Positions 8,201 to 64,000 of a stretch of 64,000 nucleotides of DNA are shown here, piece by piece. The stretch lies in assembly GCF_041260155.1 (NCBI RefSeq), contig NW_027248277.1, positions 20,364,872 to 20,428,871 of the forward strand, read 5' to 3'. Under the pieces are notes generated by a model that ran no database searches, was not told the origin of the DNA, and saw only the letters and a list, made by a program, of their open reading frames with translations. Numbering within the stretch: the first letter of the stretch is position 1; each line of letters starts with the position of its first letter. The stretch comes from Ptychodera flava (taxonomy: Eukaryota; Hemichordata; Enteropneusta; Ptychoderidae). The position numbers and the translations under genes were made by a program.

Positions 8201-10578
8201 AATAAAGAAAATTCTTCCTGATGTCTTATAACTTGTTATTGCTAAATTTGGAAACATTAAGTACTTCATCATCAAGATATGAATTTGAATTTTAGCAGTC
8301 TCCCAGGCTTACAAATAATAGGGACCTTCCCCCCTTTTACTACTTAGATAATTGGCCATCGTTCTTCCACGTGATGTCTTAAAAACTGATAGTATGCTTT
8401 CCATCGTGCATGATTTCATTTTCGTTCATTAATACTGGCTAGTGATGAATTCTTGCTAAATATTACATGAAACCAAACATAATGAAAATACCAAATTTAT
8501 TGAAAGATCACACTTTTGATGAAACAGTTGATAACCTTGAACAGGAAATTTTGTTGATTTATCTTTGATGCTTTGCTGTTTGATGAGCCTGATCAACCAC
8601 TAAAATATGGCTGATTCTGCAAAAGAATTATTTCCAAAACACAATCCACAGTTATTGTTACTGGTCATGTTGTAAGGTTACCCATTTCATTCATCACCAT
8701 GCCAAAATTACGTGCTGTTTTGCAACTATCTCCTAAAAGTGAAAAAACGGATATGAAGACTTGTTTTTCAAAATCTGAGTCTCACTTTACATATCAATTA
8801 GACTTCAAAAGTGAAAGAGACTCTGGTCAGCTACTGTGAAATTGAAAATCTTCCTTCAAACCAATTCAACTATGCAATAATTTGACGCGTTTTCACAGTT
8901 CGACTTCCAATGTAGCATATATTACTCTGTCTATACTGAATGGGTTTTTAAATTCTTCAATATCTTTCGAGTATTGTGGTGGTAAATTGACATTCAGGTA
9001 TGCTGAAAATGAAGTGGCTTGAAAGAAGTTTCGTAGCACTTTTGGAAACTGTATTACTGCTTAGGGGAGGTAAGATACACCTAAGACAGCTAAGTTGTAT
9101 GTTCACAAAAGTATTGTATATTGTAACACAGTTAAACTTTAAATCATAAGTCTGTGCATTAGTGAATGGTATTTATAAGATGTGAGAGATGTTTCACTGA
9201 GATAAGCTGCTGTGCTCAGAGTATAATTGTTCGAATGTTTTAAAAATCACGCATGATTTTGCCCACCTTATTTATTTTTACAGATTTTTAACACATTACA
9301 AATAACTGTTGGCTGTAATTGCCATGTTATTCCTACCACTAAACATACACTGTTTTCACACCTTTGCTTAAACCCTTCTTTTCACTTTGACACCTCCCTT
9401 TAGCATTGTCCTTTACTCACAATGCATTTGGCCTTGTGCTTCCTTGTCCATTCTGCAAGTACATCTGATGAAGGAGAATGTTGTCTTCGAAAGCTTATGT
9501 TACAGTAAAACAGTTGATCAACAGTGTGCTACCCTTAACAATATTGATGTTTACCTAAGATTAATCGTTTGCTTTTGACGAGTTACTTTGAGTGTCAAGT
9601 TTATTGAGATCAACGTCCTCTTTGGGGGTAATGAACTTGACACTTATGGTGACCCCTCAGAATCGAATGTTTAATTTTACGCTAACTGTCATAACTAAAA
9701 ATAGTGTCATTTGTGTTTCAATCAATATTGTATTATTTCAATAGTTTCATACGAAATTTATGTAAAATTAGCTGTTGGTCCGTAGCTGTGGTGATTTACG
9801 AGACGTTGACTGAAAACAACACAGCGACCGACCTACAGCTAATGCAAATATGCCCCCTCAACACCGCCTAGTTCAAACTTCGAACACCCCTCAGAACCAT
9901 GTAGTAAAACGCAACCCCTTCCCCTATTTCCTCCCGTAAAATTGATTCTCCCGAAACTGAAGTCAGATGGAGCCAATTTCTAATGTCGAATTTGTTTTGT
10001 GTTTACATTTTACGATGGGAGTTGACATGACGTCATGAATATTGTTTATCGTACTCAGGACTACTAAAAACGTACTTGCGTGTGGCAATTTACCCACTTC
10101 GTGATTCCGATTTCATTAATTTACCCAATTAGTGATCCCGATTTTCAATAATTGATTAGAAATAGGATGACCGATGAAGTTAACACCATGACCATCTAGA
10201 GCCACTTTCTGGCATGGTCTGCAACACTGCCTTTATTTGACATGCACAGAAAATAAAAGATATAACACCAAGCCCAGGGTCATCTTTTGACTACCTAATC
10301 AGATTTCAAACAGATTGCAGCTGCCCTAGACTGTGGACGGGCGGTGGTAGGTTAAGTGCTTTGGCCCTGGGGACCCTCCCTCTCCATGCTTCCGTGCTGT
10401 TGTCTGTTCCGGTCTGTGTACTAACTTCCAAAGATTTTATTATTTCTTGCTAGCCAGAGTGTATGTTGCTCTCAGGGCTGTCATGGAGATGTTATATGTA
10501 CAGCCATCCTGATTTCTTTATTTGAGAGACCCATGTACTTGAGGCATGAACGGAGAGTCACATTAACCTTGGAACCCA
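5298..10578. repeat. 5.3-kb tandem repeat, copy B
   Basis: Second full copy of the unit, in the same orientation as copy A and directly abutting it. Most differences from A and C are one-base length changes in homopolymers. This pattern is typical of long-read consensus error, and also of recent paralogues. Confidence 0.9.
6638..6830 (-). CDS. Candidate 3'-terminal coding exon (copy B)
   Basis: Equivalent of the frame at 1346-1538, with the acceptor preserved and the same length. It differs by a Ser-to-Asn change near the end and a last residue of Leu instead of Val. Confidence 0.3.
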
Positions 10579-13405
10579 CTTGCACTGCAAATGCTATGTT
10601 TGCCATCCAGCATCATGGCACTCTTGGATGATTTCCATATATTTGCACTTTTTCCTGGAATTTGCTGCTGCAAAAATTCCTCATTGGAACTGTCAACTTT
10701 ATCACCACGCATTTCCTTTGTGTAGTCGAATAAATGGTGACGTCCGGTCGCTTGGCTTTAATAATGTGATAGTGTGCAGAAAGTTTATTCGTTACAGAGC
10801 TCAAAGGAAGCACAAAAAATATTGAAATTTGGTCCAATTTTAATGTAAATGGTCATGCGAATTGATTACCATGAAATATGCCCGTATTTCAACTTTCATT
10901 GTTTGGTTCCAGGGTGTGTGACCGAATACGGTCAGGGATTGCGCTGATAGCACAAAGAAAGCACATTGAGGATCAAAATTTGGTCCAATTTTAATGAAAA
11001 CGGTCGTATGAACCCATAATGTAATGAAATTTACCCGTATCTCGAATGCCACTCTTTGATTTTAAGATGGAAAATGGTTGGCCTGATACTGTCACGGAAT
11101 CTGTCCAATCTTTAGGCTGCGTTCACAAATAATGGTTGGGGAGGAGGGGGGTCTCGAGGAATCGTGACTGAAATCTTATTTTCTCTCAGCTCCCTCAAAT
11201 AGCTTTAAAAATTTTAAGTCCCCCGTCTGTATGATCAAAAATTTCAAGTCCCCACCCATTATCATCAGTGGTCTTCCCAGGATTTTCTGGTAGAGTGGAG
11301 ACCAATCTGTTGTTAACCAAAAATTAACGAATGGCGGCCACCACACTATAATTGCTCGGGGATAACACTGATCATATAGCCACATATGTATTAGGGATGC
11401 ATGCAATGAAAATATATAAACAAGTATTTGGCAGTTCTGCTCGCAAATGTTCAACACTACCTGCTATTAGCAGTTTGTAGAGCCATATTCCTAAAGCTAG
11501 TTCTTAAATTGATTCATTTTTAACACATCAGAGGACTTTTTATTTATCAGTCAGAGCCACTTTTACTTAATCCAACTCGATCTAGCCACGCCAATGGCAC
11601 CTGCAGAAGAGCACACAAAATGATGACCATGAAAGAGTATGCAAATTGTTAATTCCTGGCAACATGGATGCTACTTATAAATTTTACAAAATTGACAATA
11701 CTTGAGGGTTAAAATATTTCATCAAATAAAGTTTTAATTGTTGAAATTTTTGGTGTCATCATGGTAAATATGGTAACATTAAAATAAGTCCATCTGGTCA
11801 TACATTTTTCATTTAAATTAGAATCTTTACCATACAAATTTTACTTATATTGTTAATTTACCATGAGAATATTAAAATCTAGAAATTCAAGCATGGTGAC
11901 CCCATCTTTTTTATTATTCTCATACGCCAGAATTCAAAAGTCCCTGATAACTATCCCGTCTCCTGGTCTTGATGTGTTGCTTTCTGGCCTGATCTTGTGT
12001 ACAAATATATGTTCCGCTGTCATGAGTGTCACATGACCCGAACTCTTCTTCAGCTACTTCATAGTCAGAGCTATATCTGTCACTACTTCTATTGTATACA
12101 GTAGCAGTGACACTGCAAGGAGGCAGTAGCTGTATTAACTTTGATATAATTTTGACAATAATTTTTTTCTGTGTATACAACAGTATTCTTGTTCTACTCC
12201 CTACAGAGTGTTGAACTATCCAGTATTCAGCTTGCTAACACAGCCTGTGAATATGTATCCAGCATTTGTATCAACATTCCTATATGCAAGCATTTGTCGA
12301 CAAACTGAATAATATGCATTTCAGCATACTGTAGGAACACAGCAAGCAAGTGTATTGATATATACGTAGAACTATTAAAAAAATTATCGACAGTTGCAGC
12401 TTCTGCTCCGATACTAGGCCTACCTGTTTGCTTTTAGATTTTTCGAGACAAAAGTTATGAAATGAGGGAAATTGATTCTAGATCTTGTATAATCATTACT
12501 AAAATAACACACAACAGTGAGCCAAGCAGTTCATTTTGTCATCAGCTGTGAATAAATGTGATTGACAAACAAATACGATTTCACAAAGTTTCTTTCTACT
12601 TAACTCATAAGTACACCATTGAAGACAGTAGCCTAGAGGTATCAGCATGAGTGTCAAAATTGTTCATTCTCAACATTTTTGCTGTGATCATTTCAAAAGT
12701 TCAATACCTTTATGTCAACTTCTTCTCGCGGGGGGACATATATCTGGTGTGGCATGATTTTAGAATAGGGACTTGCTCAAAATTCAAAAGAATTTGTGAA
12801 AAATAGACATATCTATGATAGGGCTTTAAATTATTTCTATATCTAGCCACTGATAGTCAAAGTTGAATACCTGTTGTTTATGGCATGAGAGGTGTGTTTG
12901 GTAAGTTCAGCCTTACGATGTTGACAGGTTAAATTGTCAAAAAACTTTACCTTTGCTGTATTCATATTACACGTTCATTTTCAGCAAGATTTAGAAATCG
13001 CAAAAGCCCGTCAAGGAGAAAAACAGTCTCAAAAAAGTCCCATGGTCAGTATTTGTTATTGAGAAACTGGATTCAGCGTGTTGTCCTGAAACAAGCTGTA
13101 ACTAGCGCGAATCCAATGGCGACAAGGCATAGCTGTTTTGGAATTGTCCCTTCGACCTATTCATTACGTTGTCCTTATTACCCACACTGCACTTCGGGGC
13201 AGTCTGGGTAACCAAGACTACCTTTCATGGCAAAAATAATTGATGCAAACAGATATCGGATAAAGGTTTTCTATCTGCTTTTACAAAGCTTGTTGACGTT
13301 GTACTAACATCTTTGTCAGGCAACTGGGAACTTCAACAACTATACTTAGCACTGAGGCAAACCAAAATGGACGCTTCTACTTTCGTAAATTTAATCAGGA
13401 AAATA
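10579..13405. repeat. 5.3-kb tandem repeat, copy C, cut by gap
   Basis: Third copy of the unit. It follows copies A and B up to the N run and is not resumed after it, so the true copy number is unknown. Its version of the block near 12985-13020 matches copy B rather than A. Confidence 0.9.
11920..12112 (-). CDS. Candidate 3'-terminal coding exon (copy C)
   Basis: Equivalent of the frame at 1346-1538, with the same length, acceptor and predicted residues as copy A. Confidence 0.3.
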
Positions 13406-13505
13406 NNNNNNNNNNNNNNNNNNNNNNNNNNNNNNNNNNNNNNNNNNNNNNNNNNNNNNNNNNNNNNNNNNNNNNNNNNNNNNNNNNNNNNNNNNNNNNN
13501 NNNNN
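13406..13505. other. Assembly gap (100 N)
   Basis: A run of exactly 100 N, the usual placeholder for a gap of unknown size. It interrupts the third 5.3-kb repeat copy. Confidence 1.
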
Positions 13506-20815: not shown

Positions 20816-23081
20816 TCAGCAGAGCCATTTCAATTGTTCTTCATACACCATGTTGTTGAGGTCGGCGACGTCTGACTGCAATTCATGGCAAAATTCACCT
20901 TCTTGATCTTTCTGGCAATTGACATTCGCAGCGTTCTGTACGGATCTGAGTTTTGCAAGATCAGCTTCGAAGTCGCCATCATAGTTCGCAACCCTTCTCC
21001 AGAAAGTATCGTTGAAAAAGTTGTACAAGCGTATATCTGTAGGTGACAACTCTGTTATAATATCTCGCATTTGATTGGTGATCGGTGGTTGATACTTAGT
21101 GTGCACTTTGCAAGAATGATAGATAATATCCTCAAAGTTCCAACACATTGTCTTTTTAAGTAAAACCAGCGACTCGTCGAAATACTCCAAAAGCATGACA
21201 AGGTCGAGCTCGCCGTTCAGTCTCTGTAACGCAGCAAAGTGAAGATGTCTTGTTTGCATAAATATCAAGACCAAAGCGGGTGGAGAAGGTGTTTGTCCTA
21301 TGTAGTAATGATTTGTCAACTTTGGCATCCTGCATTAGGTTACTGAGATATCGCGCGAAAGGGTCTGGCGACATTGCCAGGTTCATGTCTCTCCTCTGGT
21401 AATAAAACCGTGATTTCAGGTGTGTATATGGCGATCGCACAATTGTGAAATACTTAGCATTTGGAATGATACGTTCAAGTGACAGGCGATCGTATTTTTC
21501 AATATGCAAACAAAGATAATCATATCCTGGAAAATCGCTACAATTGTAGTATAAAATCCCGAGACGATGATTCTTCCTGTCAGCGTTATAAGATTATCTT
21601 CAATGGTTAATTTCTTCAAGGCTGCCACAAGCTTATTCTTCATACCAAAACGAAGCAACAACGAAGACACTGTGCTTCCACCTGTCTTTTCCGTTTTATG
21701 AAGACGAATTTTGTCAACGGTTTGCAAGATCGAGGCGATGAGGTTACATAACCATGAGAAGACTTGCTGTACGATTGTCCCTTGCCATTTATGGTTGTGT
21801 CTGTGTGTTTTTCTGTTAGTTGGTCGGGCTAAAACAATGGAAAGGACAGAATTCAATAAATTCTGAGTATGTCAGGAAATGTTATCAACAAATGTAATAT
21901 TTGGCATCATCGACGTAAATGTAGCTCAGCGAGAGAAAGTGACACAATCTCTTAGAAATAATTGTAACAGACTCAACTAAGGTAGACTGCCTCTCGAGGA
22001 TAGATATTCGGACTCTCAAACTTTTACAGTAAACATTTTGGCTACCTTTTGTAGTGGCTCATCTTGAAGTGGGTAAATTATGCGCTCACCAAAACAGGCA
22101 TTTTCCTTCAAAGAGTATGCCTTACAAGTTCGTTAGAGAAAAGTTTGAGCAAATGTTTTAATTCTTTCGTTTGCGTGACGCTAACTATGTTTATGTGACA
22201 CACACAACTAACACGATAAGAACTAATTTGGGATAATTGGATTTTCATATTTTTCTAATTTCTCAAAAAATTTAGGTGTTATATGGCTGAATGTTGCGAT
22301 ATTAAAAATTATTCATAAAAACAAGTGTGTGATTTAAAAAGAAAAGCAGATGAGCCTTACAGATTAAAACGACCTCACTTCACCATCCAATTATCCGAAA
22401 TTGGTTCCAATCGTGTTAACTATTAATGTAATGGTTTGGCAAATTGAGTCTTGATCTCTTTGGAGGACTCGATATAAAACTAAGACTCATCGACTTCAAT
22501 ACAAAAATAAAAAAACACAAACAAATCAGAAACAACTTACAAAATGTTTATCTGTGAAATTCTTGTACGGTAATTCCAATAAAAAGCTGACATAAAACAC
22601 ACCTACCAACGACGAAAATTAACATTTTGGTTCTGCTACAGCGGAATGTAACTGTAATACAATCACAAACATTGAACATCAGAGAAACGATATGACTTGG
22701 ATCAACTATGAATGTATGTAACTGCTGTTGTTGTTATCATGCAATTCTTACGGAAACCTTAAACATTTCCACTCGAATTCCAGTCACCATAACTGATAAT
22801 GATAGAATTGCAACTTGCAGTAAATATCAGCAACTGTTTCTAGCTGTATATTGATACCGACATGAAACATTCACCAAAATAAATTGAATCTCGGTGATTT
22901 TGTTAAGCAAGACTGTAACTTTCCTGCATTTAGGGTACTAAATTATCCGATAAAATCTTGGAGAAGCAATTGATATCACTATTTTTGCGACTGTCTTGTG
23001 AAATGGAATAGTTAAATGTGTAAAAGTTGTTATCAAGATGGCAAAACCGTATATCTTACCATTCGAACGGGTTGTCATCAT
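20816..23081 (-). pseudogene. Gal3ST-like sulfotransferase copy 1 (frameshifted)
   Basis: Most diverged full copy, with the three-exon layout kept: exon 3 at 20816-21828, exon 2 at 22541-22651, exon 1 coding part at 23060-23081 starting MMTTRSN. Splice signals survive (donor GTAAGA after exon 1, donor GTAAGT after exon 2, acceptor ttttag before exon 3). The PAPS-binding motif EKTGGSTVSSLLLRFG and the FTIVRSPYTHLKSRFYY and EYFDESLVLLKK segments are readable, but in different frames. Exon 3 has at least four single-base indels (near 21229, 21582, 21693 and 21815) and exon 2 lacks one base and has an early stop. This number of changes argues for a real pseudogene rather than sequencing error. 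Confidence 0.85.
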
Positions 23082-27805: not shown

Positions 27806-29013
27806 AGTAGTAGTAGTATGTTTATTATAGTGACATGTAATTACCAAAGTATATAACTCAAAGAGAAAAATACAGGATGAATTACCCAGCCCATCGGGCT
27901 TATAAGTCACTATGAAATATAATTCATTTAACAAATCATTGAGGATGCTATATAATTAGAAAAACAAAGAAATCTCACAAATCACTAATTAGGAACATAC
28001 AAAACATTTCGTCGCCTATTAAAAGCTCTATTAATGAATTTTGAGGTAACTCTTGGGTGATTTACCATGATATGTTTTAGCTTACATATATCATCGTGAG
28101 AAAAAAATTCAGGACAAGATTCACTGACAGAATTATATAAAGAAAACCGTAAGTCATCATACAATTAGCAATGGAAAATAAAATGAACTTCATCCTCGAC
28201 ATCATTCGAATCACATAGTTTACATGTACGATTGGCCACTGCCTCGCCTCTATATCGCCCTGTTTCAACCCTGAGAGGAAGGATACCAAAACGAAACTGG
28301 GCAAACAGAGACCTTTCTGATCGAGATAAGTCCAAGTTTAGGTAGCCTTCAGTGCTGTACTCTGTCTTAAAAGTGGAATAAGTACGGAGTTTTGGTTTAT
28401 TTAATACATTATTGTACCAATTTTCAACACAACTTAATTGTTTGTTCTCCTTGACCCTATCTATGTCACAAGGTGTCACATCATCAATGTCTAAACTTTC
28501 AAAAATATTATGCAACTCTGCTGACCAATTTCCAGCACACAAGTAATTATCCCATAAAAAAATTTTCTTGGTCAATCTATTTTCGTCCAAACAATTCAGT
28601 CTGTTCCAGTAACGAACCATATTAACCCATCTACGAGTGATACACATGTCCCAGCCGGTATCTCCAAGAACAGCAAGTTTAGGCGCAAATTTATGTACTC
28701 CCAGAAAATAACGCAGTGCCCTGTTTTGGACTAATTCAGGAAAAAGAAAGTTCTCATAGCCCCAGATTGATGAACAATAATCAAGAATAGGAGTTACAGA
28801 GGCATTAAACAGTTTAGTGAAAGTATTAACCCCATGTTGTTTAGATATTTAAATTTTGAGCAAATCAATCCCAGAGCCCTACCAGCAGAATCAGCTTGTG
28901 CTTCGGCAGTTACTGAAAAATCTAAGAACTCGTCAAACATAATACCGAGATATTTATATCTCGAAGCAAAAGCAATTTCATCCGTACCAATGTGAAAACG
29001 GAAATCATCTATG
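27806..29013 (-). pseudogene. 3' part of a LINE (C-terminal RT ORF), minus strand
   Basis: The minus-strand frame at 28165-28647 and its continuation upstream resemble the C-terminal region of jockey/CR1/L2-type LINE ORF2: 'LAVLGDTGW', 'NMVRYWNRL', 'FRFGILPLRVETGRYRG', then a Cys/His motif (CKLCDS...EDEVHFIFHC). The upstream part is open in other frames with one break near 28850. The element's 3' end runs into a (TAC)n tract at 27806-27820, a simple-repeat terminus as such elements often have. The catalytic RT core is missing, so the copy is 5'-truncated. I cannot place it in a clade more exactly. Confidence 0.65.
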
Positions 29014-29017
29014 ATGG

Positions 29018-29200
29018 ATTGACGTGGCGTTTCAAAAGTATGAAAAATGAGACTCAGTAACTTTTGGTTGCTTTACATTTGATCAAAAACCTACCAATCA
29101 GACGAGGCCCAACTCATACGCAGAAAACAAAAGCTCTGGAGCGTCGACTTTCTCTTCCGCGTTTGAGACTTTCTTCTCTTTCGCGTTTGAGAGAAACAAA
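29018..29200 (+). repeat. Right copy of the ~180-bp direct repeat
   Basis: Partner of 27598-27780, clearly diverged from it. It is far longer than a LINE target-site duplication, so it was probably present as a duplication before or independently of the LINE. Confidence 0.6.
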
Positions 29201-32052: not shown

Positions 32053-33678
32053 TCAGCAGAGCCATTTCATTTGTTCTTCATACACCTTGTTATTGAGTTC
32101 GGCGACGTCCGACTGCAATCTATGGCAAAAATCACGGTCCCGATCTTTCTGGCACCTGACCTTCGCAGCGTTCTGTACGGATCTGAGTTTAGCAAGATCA
32201 GCTTCAAAGTCGCTATCATAGTTCGCAACCCTTCTCCAGAAAGTATTGTTGAAAAAGTTGTACAAGCGTATATCTGCAGGTGATAATTCTGTTATAATAT
32301 CTCGCATTTGATTGTTGATCGGTGGTTGATACTTGGTGTGCACTTTGCAAGAATTATAGATAACGTCCTCAAAGTTCCAACACATTGTCTTTTTGAGTAA
32401 AACAAGCGACTCGTCGAAGTACTCCAAAAGCATGACAAGGTCGAGCTCTCCGTTCAGTCTTTCTAACGCTGCAAGTGAAGATGTCTTGTTTGCATAAACA
32501 TCTAGGCCAAAGCGGGTGGAAAAGGAGTTTGTCCAATGTAGTAATGATTTGTCAACTTTGATGTCTTCCAAGAGGTCACTTAGATATCGCGCGAAAGGGT
32601 CTGGTGACATCGCAAGGTTCATACCTCTTCTACTGTAATAAAACCGTGATTTCAGATGTGTGTATGGCGATCGTACAATCGTGAAATACTTAGCATTTGG
32701 AATGATACGTTTAAGTGACAGGCGATCATACATGTCAATGTGCAAACAAATATAATCATATCCTGGAAAATCGCTACAATTATAGTATAAAATCCCGAGA
32801 CGATGATTCTTCTTGTCCAGTCTTATAAGATAGTCTTCAATGGTTAATTTTTTCAAGGCTGCCACAAGTTTATTCTTCATACCAAAACGAAGCAACAACG
32901 AAGACACTGTGCTTCCACCTGTCTTTTCTGGTTTTACGAAGACGAATTTTGTCAAGGGTTTGCAAGATCGAGTCGATGAGGTTACATCATCGTAGGAAGA
33001 TGTTTTGCTGTAAGATTGGCCCTTGCCACTTATGTTGGTGTTTGTGTGTTCATCCGTTAGATGGTTCGGGCTTAAGCAAAACAATGAAAAGAACAGAATG
33101 CAATACATTTTGAGTATATGTCAGGAAATATTGGCAACAAAAGTAACATTTGGCATCATCAACGTAAATATGGATTAGGTAGAGAAAGTGATATAATCTC
33201 AGGGACAGATATTAGGACTGCCAAACTTTTATTTTGACCTACTTCTTTAGGGACTCATCTTGAAGCGGATATATAAAGCTCTCAATATTATTGTTATGTC
33301 CTTGAAAGAGAATAGTATGATCGCTGGAAGTTCATATATTGCGAGGCACGAACTATGGTTATATGACACAAAACGATTATGAGCGGTGGTTTGGCAGTTT
33401 ACATGGAGTCTTGTTCTGTATATCAAATTATGAGGTTTGGATAAAAATGTATACTCTTCGACTTCGATGCAAAAAGAATGAGAAATCACTCACAGAATGA
33501 TCATCCGTGAAATTCTGGTAAGGTTATTCCAAGAAAGTGCTGACAACAAAGAAACCATACCAACGACGAAAATCAACATGTTGGTTCTGCTACAGCCGCA
33601 CGTCACTGTAATAGAAACACAAGGACTGAACAGCAGAGAACAAATACGACTTTAACTATCTATCTCTGTATGTCTGTA

Positions 33679-33717
<39 letters not shown>

Positions 33718-34430
33718 ATGTATGTATGTATGTATGTATGTATGTATGTATGTATGTATGTATGTATGTATGTATGTATGTATGTATGTATGTATGTATG
33801 TTTGTACGTTCGTACGTATGTATGTGTGCACGTATGTATATACGTATGTACGTACGTATGATAGGTAGGTAGGTAGGTAGGGAGGGAGGGAGGGAGGCAG
33901 GGGAGGGAGAGAGGGAGGGCGGAAGGGAGGGAGGGAGCTAATCGATAATTATAGCATTGTCACTTGTGAAAAATATCGGCAAACGTTTCTAGCTGCGCCT
34001 AAATGAATCGAATCGCAGGGATTTTGCTAAGAAAAACTTTTAACTTTCCTGCATTTTAGTGTACTAAATTTTCCGAACACAATTGAAACTCATATGGGAT
34101 AATTGGAACTATATATTTTTCAAATATCTCAAAAGTGTGATGTGCCCTACGGCTGAATGTTACGACATCAGAAATTACCCATAAAAACAAGTGTATTGCT
34201 TAGAAAGAAAAACAGATGAGCTTATATTTGCTGATTTAGCTCATATTACTTCACTATCCAATTATCCAAAATTAGTTCCAATCGAGTTTCCGATAAAATC
34301 AGGGAGAAGCAATACGTGTCATTATTCGTGCCATTGTCCTGTGAAATGGAAAGGTTAAGTGTCAAAAATGTATTATTAAGATGGCAAAACTGGCATTGCA
34401 TATCTTACCTTTTGAAGGGGTTGACTTCAT
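32053..34430 (-). CDS. Gal3ST-like sulfotransferase, copy 2 (intact, three exons)
   Basis: Predicted to transfer sulfate from PAPS to a galactose-containing glycan in the Golgi. Exons: 34409-34430, 33494-33605, 32053-33070; introns 33606-34408 and 33071-33493. Donors are AAAAG|GTAAGA and TCT|GTGAGT; acceptors are ttctattacag and ttttgcttaag. Phases join exactly to give 383 residues. The tail MKSTPSKVTCGCSRTN is followed by a hydrophobic anchor (residues 17-33, MLIFVVGMVSLLSALSW), so this is a type II membrane protein. The 5'-PAPS loop EKTGGSTV lies at 93-100, the 3'-PAPS segment YFTIVRSPYTHLKSRFYY at about 173-190, and the family motif EYFDESLVLLKK at 261-272. The ATG at 33108 lies in the intron-2 pyrimidine tract and is probably not a start. 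Acceptor sugar and paralogue type cannot be told. Confidence 0.9.
33667..33936 (+). repeat. Compound microsatellite in intron 1 of copy 2
   Basis: (GTCT)n, then (ATGT)n, then GGTA/GGGA runs. The same compound repeat occupies intron 1 of copies 3-5, with different lengths. Confidence 0.95.
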
Positions 34431-39046: not shown

Positions 39047-41345
39047 TCAGCAGAGCCATTTCATTTGTTCTTCATACACCTTGTTATTGAGTTCGGCGAC
39101 GTCCGACTGTAATCTATGGCAAAAATCACGGTCCTGATCTTTCTGGCACCTGACCTTCGCAGCGTTCTGTACGGATCTGAGTTTTGCAAGATCAGCTTCA
39201 AAGTCGCCATCATAGTTCGCAACCCTTCTCCAGAAAGTATTGTTGAAAAAGTTGTACAAGCGTATATCTGCAGGTGATAATTCTGTTATAATATCTCGCA
39301 TTTGATTGGTGATCGGTGGTTGATACTTGGTGTGCACTTTGCAAGAATTATAGATAACGTCCTCAAAGTTCCAACACATTGTCTTTTTTAGTAAAACAAG
39401 CGACTCGTCGAAGTACTCCAAAAGCATGACAAGGTCGAGCTCTCCGTTCAGTCTTTCTAACGCTGCAAGTGAAGATGTCTTGTTTGCATAAATATCTAGG
39501 CCAAAGCGGGTGGAAAAGGAGTTTGTCCAATGCAGTAATGATTTGTCAACTTTGATGTCTTCCAAGAGGTCACTTAGATATCGCGCGAAAGGGTCTGGTG
39601 ACATCGCAAGGTTCATACCTCTTCTACTGTAATAAAACCGTGATTTCAGATGTGTGTATGGCGACCGTACAATCGTGAAATACTTAGCATTGGAATGATA
39701 CGTTTAAGTGACAGGCGATCATACATGTCAATATGCAAACAAATATAATCATATCCTGGAAAGTTGCTACAATTGTAGTATAAAATCCCGAGACGATGAT
39801 TCTTCTTGTCCAGTCTTATAAGATAGTCTTCAATGGTTAATTTTTTCAAGGCTGCCACAAGTTTATTCTTCATACCAAAACGAAGCAACAACGAAGACAC
39901 TGTGCTTCCACCTGTCTTTTCTGGTTTTACGAAGACGAATTTTGTCAAGGGTTTGCAAGATCGAGTCGATGAGGTTACATCATCGTAGGAAGATGTTTTG
40001 CTGTAAGATTGGCCCTTGCCACTTATGTTGGTGTTTGTGTGTTCATCCGTTAGATGGTTCGGGCTTAAGCAAAACAATGAAAAGAACAGAATGCAATACA
40101 TTTTGAGTATATGTCAGGAAATATTGGCAACAAAAGTAACATTTGGCATCATCAACGTAAATATGGATTAGGTAGAGAAAGTGATATAATCTCAGGGACA
40201 GATATTAGGACTGCCAAACTTTTATTTTGACCTACTTCTTTAGGGACTCATCTTGAAGCGGATATATAAAGCTCTCAACATTATTGTTATGTCCTTGAAA
40301 GAGAATAGTATGATCGCTGGAAGTTCATATATTGCGAGGCACGAACTATGTTTATATGACACAAAACGATTATGAGCGGTGGTTTGGCAGTTTACATGGA
40401 GTCTTGTTCTGTATATCAAATTATGAGGTTTGGATAAAAATGTATACTCTTCGACTTCGATGCAAAAAGAATAAGAAATCACTCACAGAATGATCATCCA
40501 TGAAATTCTGGTAAGGTTATTCCAAGAAAGTGCTGACAACAAAGAAACCATACCAACGACGAAAATCAACATGTTGGTTCTGCTACAGCCGCACGTCACT
40601 GTAATAGAAACACAAGGACTGAACAGCAGAGAACAAATACGACTTTAACTATGTATGTATGTATGTATGTATGTATGTATGTATGTATGTATGTATGTAT
40701 GTATGTATGTATGTATGTTTGTACGTTCGCACGTATGTATGTGTGCACGTATGCATATACGTATGTACGTACGTATGATAGGTAGGTAGGTAGGTAGGGA
40801 GGGAGGGAGGAAGGGAGGGAGAGAGGGAGGGAGGGAGGGAGGGAGGGAGGGAGCTAATCGATAATTATAGCATTGTCACTTGTGATAAATATCGGCAAAC
40901 GTTTCTAGCTGCACCCAAATGAATCGAATCGCAGGGATTTTGCTAAGAAAAACTTTTAACTTTCTGCATTTTAGTGTACTAAATTTTCCGAACACAATTG
41001 AAACTCATATGGGATAATTGGAACTATATATTTTTCAAGTTTCTCAAAAGTGTGAAGTGACCTACGGCTTAATGTTACGACATCAAAAATTACTCATAAA
41101 AACAAGTGTATTGCTCAGAAAGAAAAGCAGATAAGCTTATATTTGCTGATTTAGCTCATATTACTTCACTATCCAATTATCCAAAATAAGTTCCAATCGA
41201 GTTTCCGATAAAATCAGGGAGAAGCAATACGTGTCATTATTCGTGCCATTGTCCTGTGAAATGGAAAGGTTAAGTGTCAAAAATGTATTATTAAGATGGC
41301 AAAACTGGCATTGCATATCTTACCTTTTGAAGGGGTTGACTTCAT
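39047..41345 (-). pseudogene. Gal3ST-like sulfotransferase copy 3 (single 1-bp deletion)
   Basis: Exons: 41324-41345, 40487-40598, 39047-40063, all splice signals as in copy 2. Exon 3 is 1017 nt instead of 1018. A run of three T in copies 2 and 4 is two T here (39690-39691), which breaks the frame just before the 3'-PAPS segment. Apart from this the protein is nearly identical to copy 2, with one Arg-to-Trp change in exon 2. One homopolymer deletion is also the commonest assembly error, so this copy may really be functional. Confidence 0.85.
40651..40853 (+). repeat. Compound microsatellite in intron 1 of copy 3
   Basis: (ATGT)n followed by GGTA and GGGA runs. It lacks the GTCT part seen in copy 2. 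Confidence 0.95.
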
Positions 41346-46052: not shown

Positions 46053-48371
46053 TCAGCAGAGCCATTTCATATGTTCTTCATACACCTTGTTATTGAGTTC
46101 GGCGACGTCTGACTGTAATCTTTGGCAAAAATCACGGTCCTGATCTTTCTGGCACCTGACCTTCGCAGCGTTCTGTACGGATCTGAGTTTTGCAAGATCA
46201 GCTTCAAAGTCGACATCATAGTTCGCAACCCTTCTCCAGAAAGTATCGTTGAAAAAGTTGTACAAGCGTATATCTGCAGGTGATAATTCTGTTATAATAT
46301 CTCGCATTTGATTGGTGATCGGTGGTTGATACTTGGTGTGCACTTTGCAAGAATTATAGATAACGTCCTCAAAGTTCCAACACATTGTCTTTTTGAGTAA
46401 AACAAGCGACTCGTCGAAGTACTCCAAAAGCATGACAAGGTCGAGCTCTCCGTTCAGTCTTTCTAACGCTGCAAGTGAAGATGTCTTGTTTGCATAAACA
46501 TCTAGGCCAAAGCGGGTGGAAAAGGAGTTTGTCCAATGTAGTAATGATTTGTCAACTTTGATGTCTTCCAAGAGGTCAGTTAGATATCGCGCGAAAGGGT
46601 CTGGTGACATCGCAAGGTTCATACCTCTTCTACTGTAATAAAACCGTGATTTCAGATGTGTGTATGGCGACCGTACAATCGTGAAATACTTAGCATTTGG
46701 AATGATAGGTTTAAGTGACAGGCGATCATACATGTCAATATGCAAACAAATATAATCATATCCTGGAAAATCGCTACAATTGTAGTATAAAATCCCGAGA
46801 CGATGATTCTTCTTGTCCAGTCTTATAAGATAGTCTTCAATGGTTAATTTTTTCAAGGCTGCCACAAGTTTATTCTTCATACCAAAACAAAGCAACAACG
46901 AAGACACTGTGCTTCCACCTGTCTTTTCTGGTTTTACGAAGACGAATTTGGTCATGGGTTTGCAAGATCGAGTCGATGAGGTTACATCATCGTAGGAAGA
47001 TGTTTTGCTGTAAGATTGGCCCTTGCCACTTATGTTGGTGTTTGTGTGTGCATCCGTTAGATGGTTCGGGCTTAAGCAAAACAATGAAAAGAACAGAATG
47101 CAATACATTTTGAGTATATGTCAGGAAATATTGGCAACAAAAGTAACATTTGGCATCATCAACGTAAATATGGATTAGGTAGAGAAAGTGATATAATCTC
47201 AGGGACAGATATTAGGACTGCCAAACTTTTATTTCGACCTACTTCTTTAGGGACTCATCTTGAAGCGGATATATAAAGCTCTCAACATTATTGTTATGTC
47301 CTTGAAAGAGAATAGTATGATCGCTGGAAGTTCATATATTGCGAGGCACGAACTATGTTTATATGACACAAAAATTATGAGCGGTGGTTTGGCAGTTTAC
47401 ATGGAGTCTTGTTCTGTATATCAAATTATGAGGTTTGGATAAAAATGTATACTCTTCGACTTCGATGCAAAAAGAATAAGAAATCAATCACAGAATGATC
47501 ATCCGTGAAATTCTGGTAAGGTTATTCCAAGAAAGTGCTGACAACAAAGAAACCATACCAACGACGAAAATCAACATGTTGGTTCTGCTACAGCCGCACG
47601 TCACTGTAATAGAAACACAAGGACTGAACAGCAGAGAACAAATACGACTTTAACTATGTATGTATGTATGTATGTATGTATGTATGTATGTATGTATGTA
47701 TGTATGTATGTATGTATGTATGTATGTATGTGTGTATGTATGTATGTATGTAGGTATGTTTGTACGTTCGTACGTATGTATGTGTGCATGTATGTATATA
47801 CGTATGTACGTACGTATGATAGGTAGGTAGGTATGTAGGGAGGGAGGGAGGAAGGGAGGGAGAGAGGGAGGGAGGGAGCTAATCGATAATTATAGCATTG
47901 TCACTTGTGATAAATATCGGCAAACGTTTCTAGCTGCACTCAAATGAATCGAATCGCAGGGATTTTGCTAAGAAAAACCTTTAACTTTCCTGCATTTTAG
48001 TGTACTAAATTTTCCGAACACAATTGAAACTCATATGGGATAATTGGAACTATATATTTTTCAAATTTCTCAAAAGTGTGAAGTGACCTACGGCTGAATG
48101 TTACAACATCAGAAATTACCCATAAAAACAAGTGTATTGCTTAGAAAGAAAAGCAGATGAGCTTATATTTGCTGATTTAGCTCATATTACTTCACTATCC
48201 AATTATCCAAAATTAGTTCCAATCGAGTTTCCGATAAAATCAGGGAGAAGCAATACGTGTCATTATTCGTGCCATTGTCCTGTGAAATGGAAAGGTTAAG
48301 TGTCAAAAATGTATCATTAAGATGGCAAAACTGGCATTGCATATCTTACCTTTTGAAGGGGTTGACTTCAT
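46053..48371 (-). CDS. Gal3ST-like sulfotransferase, copy 4 (intact frame)
   Basis: Exons: 48350-48371, 47492-47603, 46053-47070; the predicted protein is again 383 residues, with the same tail, anchor and PAPS-binding segments as copy 2. Three points differ. The exon-2 donor is GTGATT instead of GTGAGT, which is weaker. In the 5'-PAPS helix LLLRFG reads LLLCFG. In SLKRIIP the Arg is Pro. These could lower splicing or activity. The acceptor before exon 3 is unchanged, and intron 1 again holds the microsatellite. The protein should act in the Golgi on a galactosyl acceptor if functional. Confidence 0.85.
47655..47878 (+). repeat. Compound microsatellite in intron 1 of copy 4
   Basis: (ATGT)n followed by GGTA and GGGA runs. 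Confidence 0.95.
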
Positions 48372-52888: not shown

Positions 52889-55305
52889 TCAGCAGAGCCA
52901 TTTCATTTGTTCTTCATACACCTTGTTATTGAGTTCGGCGACGTCCGACTGCAATTTATGGCAAAATTCACGGTCCTGATCTTTCTGGCACCTGACCTTC
53001 GCAGCGTTCTGTACGGATCTGAGTTTTGCAAGATCAGCTTCAAAGTCGCCATCATAGTTCGCAACCCTTCTCCAGAAAGTATTGTTGAAAAAGTTGTATA
53101 AGCGTATATCTGCAGGTGATAATTCTGTTATAATATCTCGCATTTGATTGGTCATCGGCGGTTGATATTCAGTGTGCACTTGGCAAGAATTATAGATAAT
53201 GTCCTCAAAATTCCAACACATTGTCTTTTTGAGTAAAACAAGCGACTCGTCGAAGTACTTCAAAAGCATAACAAGGTCGAGCTCTCCGTTCAGTCTTTCT
53301 AACGCTGCAAGTGAAGATGTCTTGTTTGCATAAACATCTAGGCCAAAGCGGGTGGAGAAGGAGTTTGTCCTATGTAGTAATGATTTGTCAACTTTGACAT
53401 CTTCAATGAGGGCACTTAGATATCGCGCGTAAAGGTCTGGTGACATCGAAAGGTTTATATTTCTCCTATTGTAGTAAAACCGTGATTTCAGGTGTGTGTA
53501 CGGCGATCGCACAATTGTGAAATACTTTGCATTTGGAATGATACGTTCAAGTGACAGGCGATCTTACATGTCAATATGCAAACAAATTTAATCATATCCT
53601 GGAAAATTGCTACAATTGTAGTATAAAATCCTGAGACGATGATTCTTCTTGTCCAGTCTTATAAGATAGTCTTCATTGTTTATTTTTTTCAAGGCTGCCA
53701 CAAGTTTATTCTTCATACCAAAACGAAACTACAACGAAGACACTGTGCTTCTACCTGTCTTTTCTGGTTTTATGAAGACGAATTTTGTCAACGGTTTGCA
53801 AGATCGAGGTGATGAGGTTACATACCCCTGAGATGATTTACTGTAAGATTGGCCCTTGCCACTTATGTTGGTGTTTGTGTGTTCATCCGTTAGATGGTTC
53901 GGGCTTAAGCAAAACAATGAAAAGAACAGAATGCAATACATTTTGAGTATATGTCAGGACATATTGGCAATGAAAGTAACATTTGGCATCATCAACGTAA
54001 ATATGGATTAGGTAGAGGAAGTGACATGAATTCTTATAAATAAATGTATTGGAGTCAAGTAAGATAGACTGCGCCTCGGGGACAGATATTGGGACTGCCA
54101 AACTTTTATTTTGACCTACTTCTTTAGGGGCTATTCTTGAAGCGGATATATTAAGCTCTCACCATTATTGTTATATCCTTGAAAGAGAATGGTATGATGG
54201 CTGGATGTTCGTTTATTGCGAGGCAAGAACTATGTTTATATGACACACAACAATTATGAGCGATGGTTTGGCAGTTTACATGGAGCCTTGTTCTGTATAT
54301 CAAATTTTTAGGTTTCGATAAAAATGGATACTCTTGGACTTCGATGCAAAACGAATAATAAATCAATCACAGAATGATCAACCGTGAAATTCTGGTAAAG
54401 TTATTCAAAGAAAGTGCTGACAACAAAGAAACCATACCAACGACGAAAATCAACATGTTAGTTCTGCTACACCCGCACGTCACTGTAATAGAAACACAAG
54501 GACTGAACAGCAGAGAACAAATACGACTTTAACTATGTATGTATGTATGTATGTATGTATGTATGTATGTATGTATGTATGTATGTATGTATGTATGTAT
54601 GTATGTATGTATGTATGTATGTATGTATGTATGTGTGTATGTGTGTACGTATTTACGTATGTATGTGTGCACGTACTATGTATATACGTATGTACGTACG
54701 TACGTATGTACGTATGATAGGTAGGTAGGTAGGTAGGTAGGTAGGTAGGTAGGTAGGTAGGTAGGTAGGTAGGTAGGGAGGGAGGGAGGTAGGTAGATAG
54801 GGAGGTAGGGAGGGAGGGAGGGTTGTAGGTAACCGATAATTATAGTATTGCAACTTGTAATAAATATCGGCAACCGTTTCTAGCTGCACCCAAATGAATC
54901 GAACCGCAGGGATTTTGCTAAGCAAAACTTTTAACTTTACTGCATTTTAGTGTACTAAATTCTCCGAACACGATGGAACTCATATGGGATAATTGGAACT
55001 TTATATTTTTCAAATTTCTCAAAAGTGTTATGTGCCCTACGGCTGAATGTTACAGCATTAGAAATTACCCACAAAAACAAGTGTATTGCTTACAAAGAAA
55101 AACAGATGAGCTTATATTTGCTGATTTAGCTCATATTACTTCACTATCCAATTATCCAAAATTAGTTCCGATAAAATCAGGGAGAAGCAATACGTGTCAT
55201 TATTCGTGCCATTGTCTGAAATGGAAAAATTAAGTGTCAAAAATGTATTATTAAGGTGGCAAAACTGGCATTGCATATCTTACCTTTTGAAGGGGTTGCC
55301 TTCAT
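52889..55305 (-). pseudogene. Gal3ST-like sulfotransferase copy 5 (three stop codons)
   Basis: Exons: 55284-55305, 54371-54482, 52889-53903. Exon 3 carries three in-frame stops: TAG at 53729-53731 inside the 5'-PAPS helix, TAA at 53590-53592 and TAA at 53564-53566, both replacing Tyr codons. The PAPS loop Gly pair is also changed (GRST for GGST), and the exon-2 donor is GTGATT. Exon 3 is otherwise in phase, one codon shorter. Three independent nonsense changes make this a genuine pseudogene. A LINE sits about 630 bp upstream of its start codon. Confidence 0.9.
54536..54826 (+). repeat. Compound microsatellite in intron 1 of copy 5
   Basis: Longest GGTA run of the set, after an (ATGT)n tract. 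Confidence 0.95.
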
Positions 55306-56166
55306 GGTCGCTATTTTGAGGGTTGCCTTTTAAAATGCGAATCTGCAAAGACTGTAGCAGTTCCGCAGACTCCCAGTAATATTAAGATATTTCCACTCGG
55401 CGGACAACGAACAGTATCTGACACGCTGAACGACTTCACCCGATTTATAGTCAAAATATATCAATTCGTCATCATTTTCTGCAGATGTAACAGCTTGCGG
55501 AAAAGCAAACACGCAGCCTTTCATGTTTTAAAGATTAAACGAACATTCGAGATTTTCCTTTTAACATCGTAACTTTAATAACAGAGGAGTGGCTATTGAT
55601 ATCTGTTGTCAAATGCAGACAGTGTGCTGAAAAGATAAATCTCTGTAGGTGATATAACGGCATCAAGCGCACAATTTGTTTGTGAACATTGGGATCTCTC
55701 AGTTTAGAGCCAGAAATACATTAGTGTACTTTTAACAGTACGGTTGCCTAGTGTAAGAAGGGCGTATCGCGTGTGTTACAGTATAAAATGTACGTTCCTC
55801 TTTCGCTGGGCCATGGAAGTGTTGCTGTGTGTGCTACAGAGATACATGTTTGTCACTCTGAAAAGCCATGGCGTGTTTCTTTTGGAGCCACGTGTGGCTA
55901 ACGATCAATAAGTTGTATGAAATAAAAGGAGCGATGGGGGAGAGGGCGCTCTACATCTGTCATCTTCGGAAACAGGGTCGGAACGCTCCGTGATTTTTTG
56001 ACAAAATTGTCGTCTTACCGCTAAACTTGTTTACCGTAAAGTGGTCAGAGTTGAAGTTTAACTGTTTGTACTGTAGAAGTAACCGCAATTGTGTTACTTT
56101 CTGGACCTTTTCGGACTTTTGAAGAAGATTTCAATTTTCCGTCTCGACAAAGGAACCCCACCCAGT

Positions 56167-57453
56167 ATGGCTGCCAGTGTGGCGGGAGTCCGAAGCTACG
56201 CACAAGTTACCAAGCCGTATGCAGACTCTGAAACCGCTGAAGACAAAAAGTCCGTTCTATTTCTAAAACAATCAGATGTCGTCAGACCAGAAACCAAACA
56301 ATGGTTAAAAGGTGAGGAGATCCTTGCTAGTATTTCTGAAATAGTGCCAATTGAGAACATTGATGGCTTACAACTGATTCGAGGTCTCTGGAGAATTTAT
56401 CCAAGAGACAATGCCGATAAGCTAATACTGCTGCAACATGGTTTGTCGTTACGTGGAAAAGCAATAGAACTATGGGATAAAAATCCATTCAGACGTGAGT
56501 TGCAAGAAGATGGAGTCAAAATCACTGTGAAAGATTTGCCATTGTCGTTAGATGACAGCGTCATCGGGAGCTCTTTATCTGCGATTGGCCTGAAAACTAA
56601 ATCTCGACCTTTCAGGCAAAGATGGCGAGTAAATGGCAAACTCACGAATATATGCAATGGGGACCGCATCGTTTTCGTTGAAAAACCAAGTAAAGAATTT
56701 CCAAAATTTATTAAAGTCGGACCTTTTACCGCGAGGCTTTTTAGCAGCTTACAGAACAGAAACTCCAGTCAAGAAGCAAAGTGTAACAAGTGCTTGCAAC
56801 TTGGACATTTTAGCTACCAGTGTACAAATCCCTGGAAATGCAGACTTTGCTTTGGCAGCGGACACCTTGCAAAGGAATGTGTTGACGCCAAGTGTGAAAA
56901 GCAGACCGAACAGGAGGTGCAAAGTGTTGTGAGCACTTCAATAGCTTCTGTGACAGAGACAGCAATTATCACATCGACGCCACAACTAGGCACAACACTA
57001 GCAAGCAACGCAAGCGATCCTATGCCTTTATCCATGTCTGCTGCAGGGTCTTCTAAATCGTCCGGTTCGTCAGCTCATCGTGATAGTCAACAGTGGCAGA
57101 AAGTTACTAGTAAGAGTGGGTCGAATAGAAGCAGTCATGACACAGGGAGCAGCGACCCAACATCTTCATCGGGACAACGGGCCTCGCAGCGATCGATATC
57201 GTCATACTTTGCTGAGAAACGGCGTGATCCAAGCGAAGCGATACCGGACGGATGTGATCAAGACGATTCCGTCGATGAAACATCGACGAATATCAGCGAG
57301 AGCGGGACTGAACAGTTCGTTGACTGTGACACAACAAAAGAGGAAATGTCCGATCTTTCACCAGAACCACCGTCGATTTTATGCCGGTTTCCGAGGACGA
57401 ATTCAAACAGTAGAAAGAAGCGCAAGAGGAAGAGGAAACAGTTGAATAAATGA
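56167..57453 (+). CDS. LINE ORF1 protein, gag-like with zinc knuckles
   Basis: Nucleic-acid-binding protein that packages the LINE RNA. The frame opens at 56089, but the ATG at 56167 (MAASVAGVRSYAQ, context cagtATGg) is the better start, giving 428 residues. The middle has a gag-like region. Two CCHC knuckles follow at roughly residues 205-240 (CNKCLQLGHFSYQC and CRLCFGSGHLAKEC). The C-terminal third is Ser/Thr-rich and ends in a basic RKKRKRKRK cluster. The frame is intact. Its stop overlaps the ORF2 start in an ATGA arrangement, which suggests termination-reinitiation. Confidence 0.9.
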   Translation: MAASVAGVRSYAQVTKPYADSETAEDKKSVLFLKQSDVVRPETKQWLKGEEILASISEIVPIENIDGLQLIRGLWRIYPRDNADKLILLQHGLSLRGKAIELWDKNPFRRELQEDGVKITVKDLPLSLDDSVIGSSLSAIGLKTKSRPFRQRWRVNGKLTNICNGDRIVFVEKPSKEFPKFIKVGPFTARLFSSLQNRNSSQEAKCNKCLQLGHFSYQCTNPWKCRLCFGSGHLAKECVDAKCEKQTEQEVQSVVSTSIASVTETAIITSTPQLGTTLASNASDPMPLSMSAAGSSKSSGSSAHRDSQQWQKVTSKSGSNRSSHDTGSSDPTSSSGQRASQRSISSYFAEKRRDPSEAIPDGCDQDDSVDETSTNISESGTEQFVDCDTTKEEMSDLSPEPPSILCRFPRTNSNSRKKRKRKRKQLNK

Positions 57454-60400
57454 GTAACAAATCACATATCATAACCTTAAACGTAAGAGGTTTGAGTAAT
57501 TACTCTAAACGTAGAGATATTTTTCAATGGCTAAAACACCAAAACGCGTCTTTTGCCGTTTTACAGGAAGTTTACGGAGAAAGTGTAAATATTGTTCAGT
57601 GGGAAAAAGAATGGGGTGGCCGAATAATACTTTCGGAAGGTGCCAATAATAGTAGGGGAGTTGCAATCCTTATTGCTAAGCATTGTAATTTTCAAATTGA
57701 CAGTGTATACAAAGATGATTTTGGTAGAATTGTTATTGTAAATGGTATGTACGAGAATACGGGTTTTTCAGTCTGTGGTGTCTACGCTCCAAATGATGCT
57801 GCACATAGAAAGTATTTTTTTGTTAACCTCACGAAGGTTATTGAAGTTAACTTGCACGTATGAACGCCTAATAATTGCCGGTGACTTTAATTGTCCACTT
57901 AACAAGAGTTTGGATAAGAGAGCTCGGGCGGTAACTATTGATAAATCCGTCCCGGCCTTACGAAAAGTACTGCAACAGTTCACTTTGGTTGATATTTGGA
58001 GAGAACGCAATCCGTCACTTCAACAGTTTACATGGAGACGATTGCATCCTATCCCGACCTACAGTAGAATTGACTACATTTTTATCTCGAAGAACATTCT
58101 AAAAGACATAAAAAGAGTTGACATCAGGCCTGCTTTGAAAACAGACCACATGGCTGTTTACTTAGAAATTATTTATAGGAAATTTGACAGAGGTCCTAGT
58201 ACTTGGAAATTTAACAAGTACCTCCTAAAGAAAGATGATTACGTTGAAAGTGTCCGTAATCTCTTGAAAAGGTGTAAAACTAAGTATGAGAATGTTGATG
58301 CCAAAGTTAGTTGGGATTTGATAAAGAAAGATGTGAAAGAATACACGATTGGGTATTGTCATAACGTAACAAAAAAATTCAAACTCTCTCATTCCGGAGT
58401 TGGAGAAGCAGTTGCGTATGGCTGGCATAACATGATTCACGAGCCGTCTGACTCCAACATTGAAGCTTATGGTTCAATTAAACAGCGTCTGGAAGATCTT
58501 TACACCCTTCGAGCCGAAGGTGCGCAAATACGCTCCAGGGCACGCTGGGTCGAAAAGGGTGAAAAAAGTACGAAGTTCTTTTTAGGTTTGGAAAAGACAA
58601 ATGCCTCCAAAAAGGAGATGAATGTTCTCCGTACAGCTCATGATACCTATGTAACTGATACAGAACAGATTCTTGAGGGACAGAAGAACTTTTATCACAA
58701 TTTATATAAAGCTAAGCTGAGAGATAGTTGCCTTGATGAATTTCTAGAGGATGCACCTGTTCCACAGCTATCCCAGAATCAGTCAGATGATTGCGAGGGA
58801 GAGTTTACAAGAGAGAATGCTTTACAGCACTATGTAAGATGGCTCCCAACAAATCTCCAGGTTCTGACGGGTTAACAGGAGAATTTTATCGTTTTTTCTG
58901 GAATGATATTTGTGAATATGTTGTGTCATCTTTAAATACGAGTTACAGGTGTGGTTCGCTATCTTTATCCCAGAGACGTGGTGTACTTACACTTTTGTTT
59001 AAGAAAGGCGCTGAGGACGACCTAAACAACTGGCGTCCAGTGTCTCTTCTAAATACCGATTATAAAATCGCTACAAAAGCCCTAGCTAATCGTTTACAGA
59101 TTGTTCTTCCTTCATTGATCCATAGATATCAAACAGGGTATATGAAGGGTCGATTTATAGGCGAAAATGTTAGACTTATCTCAGACATCTTTCATTACTC
59201 AAAGAAACATAATATTGGAAGAGTTGCCATGTTCCTTGATTATGAAAAAGCCTTCGATAGTGTTAACTGGGATTATCTTGATGAAACCTTACGACGTATG
59301 AATTTTGGTCATTCGTTTCGTCAATGGGTAAAAACTTTCTACACTAATATTCAGAGCTGTATTTTGTACAAGGGTTGGTCTTCCAGCTACTTCAGGTTAG
59401 AAAGGGGTGTCCGTCAAGGATTTTCCCTTTCTGCACTTTTATTTGTCATGGCAATTGAGATTTTAGCTTGTAAGATAAGGTACGATAAAACTATCAAGGG
59501 GTTTCGTCTGCCTGCTTGTAATGGTAATGTCAAAGAAGCAAAGATTTCTTTGCTTGCAGATGATACAACTGTCTTCGTTCAAGATTTGACTTCAGTGCAT
59601 TCTGTTCTCAAAGTAATGGAGAAGTTTCAGCGTTGTAGTGGGTTAAAGTTAAATAAAAAGAAAACACAGGCTTTTAAACTTGGTAATCTAAGAAAATGTA
59701 ACGATAGAGTGGGCGATATCAGCTGGACTGACAATCCTGTGAAAACTTTAGGAGTGTATTTTGGTTATGATGATGCTCTGTGTAAGAAGTTAAACTGGGA
59801 CGATAAGTTGAAATCACTAGGAAAGATATTGGAAGTGTGGAGAAGGCGGCAACTTACGATTTATGGCCGTATTCTCATCACCAAGTCTCTTGCTGTTTCG
59901 AAAATTATGTATCTGTCATCTGTAATTGGTATTCCCAATGATATTCTCTGTGAAGTACAACGTCTTGTTGACAGTTTTGTAAAACGTAAAAGAAGAATTT
60001 CGAACAAAGTTCTTGAAAGTGAATATAAGCTGGGAGGAGTTAAACATATTAATGTGAAATGCCAAGTGGAAGCAATGATGGCTCTTTGGGTGAAAAGATT
60101 AATAATATGTAAAGATGACACATGGACTGTTTTACCCTGGTCATATTTTCGTTTAGATAATTCCACCAACTTATTACATCAGCATACAATTTGGCAAAAG
60201 ATTCCTGTTTTTCTATTATCTGTACTCCCAGACTTTTATGTAAATGTTCTAAATGGCTGGTATGCGGTGAAACACAATGCCTCTCACGGTGTTAACCATA
60301 CACTTCTTTACTAGTCTTCTAAATTCAGGTGTTTCTATGCAGCTCACTCTGCAGGTAATAACTATGATGTCATACTTAGCGATTCTAGGATTTCAGTTTA

Positions 60401-61049: not shown

Positions 61050-61349
61050 ATTTAAACCTCATACAACATGTCCATTTTCCTTTGTTTTAACTGCCACTTG
61101 GATACTTGCGTATCCATGTCACTGTAATATTCACATATTCATGTAGTTGATATGAAGGTTCAAATAAAAGATAAAAAAAGGAGCGATGCACGGTCGTAGT
61201 GATCCTAGCATATTTCGTATTTTATCTTCGTCGATGGTTTATTTGAAATATCACAGTCAAAATTAATAATATAAATATTTTATTGCTGAACAACACACTA
61301 TGGGAGTGCGGTAAAGCATAGTGTTTGTGGAGGAATTCAATAACAGTCG

Positions 61350-63239: not shown

Positions 63240-63945
63240 TATTATCTTCTTAAATGAAACACCAGAGGGCAGTACACCTCCACTACAAAAGTGACAATAA
63301 CCACTTCAATAGCTGCGCTTATGCCATTTTGATGGTGTTTGTGTATCTTTCCGTCAGATAGTCCGGAATGAAAAGAACGAATTAGATAAACTTTGAGCAT
63401 ATCAAGAAATATTAGCAACAAGTGCAACATTTGGTATCATCAACGTTAATGTCGCGTAGCTAGAGAAAGTGACATAATCTCATAGAAGTAATTGTAACAG
63501 AGTTAACAAAGGTAGACAGCGCCTAGGGAACAAATATTCGGACTTTGAAACATTTACAGTAAACCTTTTGGCCTACCTTTTGGAGGGGCTTACCGTAAAG
63601 CTTATTTGGTTAACAAAACTTTCCCTGAAATTGTATTTTTCCTTGAAAAAAGGTGGTTTGAGGGCTGGAAGTTTGCTTGACGAAAGTTTGAGTAGAAGCT
63701 ATATCTTTCAATTACAAGGAGCGAACTATGTTTCTCTGGCACACAACGATTATGGGTAATGGCTTTGCATTTTGCATGGACCCTTGGTCTGTATATCAAA
63801 TTTTGAGGTCCCCATAAAATGTAGACTCATCGACTTTGATACAAAAAACCACTTACTGGATGTTTATCTGTGAAATTCTGGTACGGAGATTAAACTAGAG
63901 AGCTGACATAAAATAACATTTTTTGTCTTCTACAGCTGCACGTCA
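63240..63945 (-). pseudogene. Gal3ST unit 6 remnant: exon 3 almost wholly deleted
   Basis: The 3' flank of the gene (as at 31950-32040 in unit 2) runs to about 63330, then jumps directly to the first ~35 nt of exon 3 (63331-63366), so roughly 980 bp of the catalytic exon is gone. Exon 2 survives at 63857-63945 with both splice signals (acceptor ctattacag, donor GTAAGT) but is 23 nt shorter than in the other copies. Exon 1 would lie beyond the window. The copy cannot encode a sulfotransferase. Confidence 0.75.
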
Positions 63946-64000
63946 CTGTAATAGAATAAAAAAGATTGAACAGCAGATAAAACAATATGACTGCCATCAA

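Follow-up and report, generated by a model that had tools for sequence, protein, structure and literature searches.

Where does a protein begin if its longest open reading frame (ORF) starts inside an intron? This question is raised by a locus of the acorn worm Ptychodera flava. We analyzed a stretch of 64,000 nucleotides (nt) from contig NW_027248277.1, which we call the window; near 32 kilobases (kb) into it, the minus strand carries an ORF of 351 codons that resembles galactose-3-O-sulfotransferases (Gal3ST). A previous interpretation of the DNA alone, the sequence-only reading, had proposed that this ORF is mostly the third exon of a gene, and that two "hidden" upstream exons provide a membrane anchor. 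We conclude, with a probability of roughly 92%, that the feature at 32 kb is a three-exon Gal3ST gene of P. flava, whose 383-residue product would be a type II Golgi sulfotransferase (a galactose or galactosylceramide 3-O-sulfotransferase), and that it lies in a tandem array of ~7-kb units whose other copies mostly appear damaged. The gene model is correct and is present in public databases: this is an ordinary annotated gene.

Structure of the gene and evidence for the spliced product

The exons of the gene and of its copies are listed in Table 1. We joined the three exon sequences of the 32-kb gene and obtained 1152 nt in phase (383 residues and a stop codon), just as the sequence-only reading had claimed for its two small exons and the catalytic one. 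The donors are AAG/GTAAGA for intron 1 and TCT/GTGAGT for intron 2 (the slash marks the splice junction), and the acceptors, in the same order, end in TTTCTATTACAG and TTTTGCTTAAG. Upstream of the ATG at 34430, there is an in-frame stop at 156 nt, with no in-frame ATG in between. The 351-codon ORF starts at ATG 33108, which is 38 nt upstream of the exon 3 acceptor and within its pyrimidine tract, so that intron sequence encodes residues 1-12 and contributes to residue 13. (The tetranucleotide microsatellites in intron 1, at 33667-33937 and at the equivalent sites in other units, vary in length among the copies.)

Table 1. Exons and introns of the 32-kb gene, and other Gal3ST copies in the window
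Feature	Position	Strand	Description
Exon 1, 32-kb gene	34409..34430	-	22 nt; ATG, 7 residues and one base (predicted cytoplasmic tail); equals P0001 residues 1-7
Intron 1	33606..34408	-	803 nt, GT-AG; tetranucleotide microsatellites inside
Exon 2	33494..33605	-	112 nt; remaining tail and hydrophobic putative anchor (~residues 17-33)
Intron 2	33071..33493	-	423 nt, GT-AG; the 351-codon ORF has its ATG (33108) close to the 3' end of this intron
Exon 3	32053..33070	-	1018 nt; stem and catalytic domain, PF06990
46-kb copy	46053..48371	-	Exons 48371-48350, 47603-47492, 47070-46053; frame open
39-kb copy	39047..41345	-	Exons 41345-41324, 40598-40487, 40063-39047; 1-nt deletion in exon 3
53-kb copy	52889..55305	-	Exons 55305-55284, 54482-54371, 53903-52889; exon 3 has three in-frame stops
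21-kb copy, most diverged	20816..23081	-	Exons 23081-23060, 22651-22541, 21829-20816; frame-breaking indels in exons 2 and 3
Sixth remnant	63322..63980	-	Fragments matching exon 2 (63980-63846) and the beginning of exon 3 (63366-63322)

We prefer the spliced model for several reasons. The first is a public protein that was made independently of the sequence-only reading. In a search of 5.8 billion proteins, P0001 is 100% identical to the spliced product over 383/383 residues. In NCBI/UniRef it is named "galactosylceramide sulfotransferase-like [Ptychodera flava]", and P. flava is named for 9 of the 60 matches listed. We take P0001 to be the annotation of the 32-kb gene itself. The small exons were not hidden, then: the public protein already includes both of them.

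The spliced model is also preferred because paralogs share the peptide encoded by exons 1 and 2, and not the peptide that results from reading through the intron. Two P. flava proteins, P0002 and P0003, are 77% and 75% identical to the query across its whole length and have a similar N-terminal tail and anchor. Neither is encoded by any copy in the window. (P0003 is 12 residues shorter than the query; the difference lies before the catalytic domain.) Of the 7 residues from exon 1, 5 are common to P0002 and P0003, and 23 (P0002) or 22 (P0003) of the 38 residues from exon 2 are shared. For P0002, P0003, P0004, and P0006, none of 500 shuffles scored as high as the exon 1-2 peptide; for P0009, 18 of 500 did. 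In all five of these relatives, the 14-residue read-through peptide had no match: 215-317 of 500 shuffles reached its score.

The other two reasons come from the DNA. The most diverged copy (at 21 kb) has ATT in place of the start codon of the 351-codon ORF, which is ATG in 4 of the 5 copies, yet it keeps the ATG of exon 1 and both donors (GTAAGA and GTAAGT); its third acceptor is rearranged. The loss of that start codon supports the spliced gene, with the first methionine of the long ORF in an intron. And using splice-site matrices, the proposed gene ranked 2nd of the 50 in-frame models with one or two introns that were found (splice score 27.90). Among the best 12 of the 50, it has the top splice score of those whose maximum hydrophobicity (KD17; KD, Kyte-Doolittle) is at least 1.6. 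Dinucleotide shuffles of the upstream sequence gave a splice score at least as high in 1 of 100 cases, and such a score together with hydrophobicity at least as high in 0 of 100.

Protein family, fold, and proposed function

The spliced product matches the Pfam family Gal-3-0_sulfotr (PF06990) with 112.2 bits, versus a cut-off of 27, and the ORF of the 46-kb copy scores 107.6 bits. Lys91, Lys94, and Thr99 are conserved in at least 90% of 39 aligned rows, and Arg178, Pro180, and Ser186 are invariant in the 39 rows. Presumably, these two regions form the binding site for 3'-phosphoadenosine-5'-phosphosulfate (PAPS). When the family profile was compared to PDB, it reached heparan sulfate 2-O-sulfotransferase at E = 0.0012. 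The structures 4ndz and 3f5f of that enzyme are 13-14% identical to the query and represent another family with another acceptor. (The only PDB match from a single-sequence search with the 351-codon ORF was an adenylate kinase at E = 0.57, which we took as chance.)

At the N-terminus, KD17 is 2.18 for residues 17-33 of the spliced product, and in the AlphaFold model, a single N-terminal helix (residues 14-44) leads into a disordered stem, followed by the sulfotransferase fold. The hydrophobic segment and the helix are consistent with a signal anchor behind a short cytoplasmic tail; a type II orientation is what the family would predict. Together with the identity to P0001 and the paralogs that share the exon 1-2 peptide, the predicted helix and stem support the core of the sequence-only reading: a Gal3ST in three exons, of which the first two would encode the short tail and type II anchor.

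The anchor of the vertebrate cerebroside sulfotransferase, GAL3ST1, is located in its first coding exon. Like the P. flava protein, GAL3ST1 has PF06990 and an N-terminal hydrophobic stretch. The vertebrate sequences P0014, P0016, and P0023 are 29-31% identical to the query over 72-78% of its length. Human GAL3ST1 is likewise reported to have few coding exons (2, versus three in the P. flava gene) and a predicted type II topology (PMC2705865).

Based on what is known of the family, splicing in vivo would join the two small 5' exons, encoding a cytoplasmic tail and a signal anchor, to the large catalytic exon. The signal anchor would retain the enzyme in the Golgi, with its PAPS-dependent catalytic domain in the lumen, and the predicted activity is 3-O-sulfation of galactose in glycolipids or glycans.

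A tandem array with damaged copies

The Gal3ST unit is ~7 kb, and units start near 31.0, 38.0, 44.9, and 51.8 kb. A copy that has diverged further occupies ~19.9-23.8 kb, and a remnant lies close to the right edge of the window. According to the sequence-only reading, each of the five full copies has the same layout. All three exons can indeed be recognized in 5 of 5 copies, and the exon 1 donor GTAAGA is kept in each. The spliced frame, however, is open in just two (at 32 and 46 kb), so these are not five working genes. The stops in the 53-kb copy are at codons 104, 151, and 159. The lesion in the 39-kb copy is the loss of one base from a run of A, and is possibly a sequencing error.

The copy at 46 kb is open, but its second donor is weakened: it reads GTGATT (47486-47491), with a score of 1.16, versus 5.15 in the 32-kb copy. 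The 53-kb copy has GTGATT too (54365-54370), and the remaining three copies have GTGAGT or GTAAGT. Exon 2 may therefore not be spliced to exon 3 alike in every copy. Also, the 46-kb product differs from the 32-kb product at 11 of 383 residues, and residue 106 is cysteine where 37 of 39 aligned rows have arginine. A protein this similar should share the 90% cluster of P0001, but P0001 stands for one member sequence. This suggests that the annotation does not include the 46-kb copy in its three-exon form.

Across the ten pairs of copies, the ratio of nonsynonymous to synonymous substitution rates (dN/dS) in exon 3 is 0.16-0.59, and therefore purifying selection acted during much of the history of exon 3. 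On balance, we favor the view that the ~7-kb unit was duplicated serially and that the majority of the five copies have died or are decaying: two are clearly broken, one has the single deleted base, the 32-kb copy is sound, and the 46-kb copy is open but damaged (the weak second donor and the change of Arg106 to Cys). If this is true, the array captures gene birth and death in progress within a hemichordate sulfotransferase family that has expanded. For hemichordate biology, the copy-by-copy list of damage also indicates the members of the array that probably make no enzyme.

We found no publication on the Gal3ST array in the accessible literature from searches on Gal3ST, the P. flava genome, and sulfatide or hemichordates. 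Searches for galactose-3-O-sulfotransferase with tandem and amphioxus, or for sulfatide with hemichordate, found nothing, and the words "sulfotransferase" and "tandem" do not occur in the main text of PMC11175523.

Alternative explanations

Several observations weigh against the three-exon gene. The match to P0001 is to a database annotation whose type of evidence is not stated, and P0002 and P0003 likewise come from annotation. The top splice score belongs to another model, with a small exon at 33300-33243 (28.93 versus 27.90). For the diverged 21-kb copy, identity is 0.773 in exon 1 and 0.820 in exon 2 (with gaps left out), which is not above most of the flanks (5' flank, 0.794; intron 1a, 0.799; 3' flank, 0.868; intron 2, 0.672), and dN/dS for exons 1-2 is 0.64, from 24 changes. 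The figures for the 21-kb copy are weak evidence in either direction because that copy is broken. We set aside conservation of the DNA as an argument for the two small exons, as neither identity nor dN/dS among the copies in the window separates these exons from most flanks. Since the close copies barely differ and the diverged copy is broken, we used protein paralogs instead.

It is very unlikely that exon 3 is right and that the 5' part is something else, be it the exon at 33300-33243, a start at ATG 33579 within exon 2, or further 5' exons. Despite its score, the model with the exon at 33300-33243 lacks a hydrophobic segment (maximum KD17 of -0.68), and by eye its peptide is absent from P0002 and P0003, which match exons 1-2 instead. 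The in-frame stop upstream of ATG 34430 also argues against a different 5' part, while a non-coding 5' exon is still compatible with it. We give even less credence to the 351-codon ORF as a real product, in which translation would start at ATG 33108 and the hydrophobic N-terminus would act as a signal peptide for a soluble or secreted enzyme. The frame is open, the start is kept in most copies, and the N-terminus, MYCILFFSLFCLS, is hydrophobic over ~11 residues. But this short run coincides with the pyrimidine tract of the acceptor, the start is lost in the most diverged copy, the read-through peptide is without a match in any relative tried, and the public protein is the spliced form. The statement that the long ORF lacks an anchor needs qualifying: it is true of a type II anchor of full length (the 19-residue KD mean is 1.03 at residue 1 of the 351-codon ORF, versus 1.73 in the spliced product), and not of hydrophobicity as such. 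Under the three-exon model, the locus offers a lesson to annotators: in a eukaryotic gene, the longest ORF can start in the pyrimidine tract of an acceptor, whose translation (Phe, Leu, Ser, Ile, Cys) imitates a signal peptide, and the likely anchor is encoded in small upstream exons instead.

A different concern is that the near-identical tandem copies are partly an artifact of assembling a highly heterozygous genome, with haplotypes placed end to end, so that the copy count and some of the lesions are not real. PMC11175523 reports that the initial P. flava assembly was about twice the expected size owing to high heterozygosity (this is not necessarily the assembly behind the window); it also describes RNA-seq and Iso-Seq reads for the species. 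The 32-, 39-, and 46-kb copies are only ~1-3% apart in their introns, and the 39-kb lesion is a single base in a run of A. However, other introns are ~6-9% or 20-33% diverged, which implies several copy ages, and the spacing is a regular 7 kb. Both fit real serial duplication, so we consider an artifact unlikely.

Other features of the window

At the gathering threshold, Rfam gave 0 matches. From the 31 stop-to-stop frames listed for the first 31 kb, eight others were chosen by eye, and these had no Pfam match at E = 0.01. The window begins with a second tandem repeat (1-13405), with a unit of ~5.3 kb in ~2.5 copies at 98% identity, which reaches an assembly gap of 100 N (13406-13505). The frames at 599-922, 6638-6949, and 7619-7921 in this repeat had no Pfam match.

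By eye, frames on the minus strand at 28165-29072 resemble the 3' end of a retrotransposon (with a cysteine/histidine-rich end), with no Pfam match for 28165-28848. Another stretch with retrotransposon frames, at 55936-61173, interrupts the fourth Gal3ST unit. Its frames (55937-61172, plus strand) resemble those of a long interspersed nuclear element: RVT_1 and zf-RVT are above the Pfam cut-offs, in separate frames, and zinc-knuckle and endonuclease matches are slightly under them.
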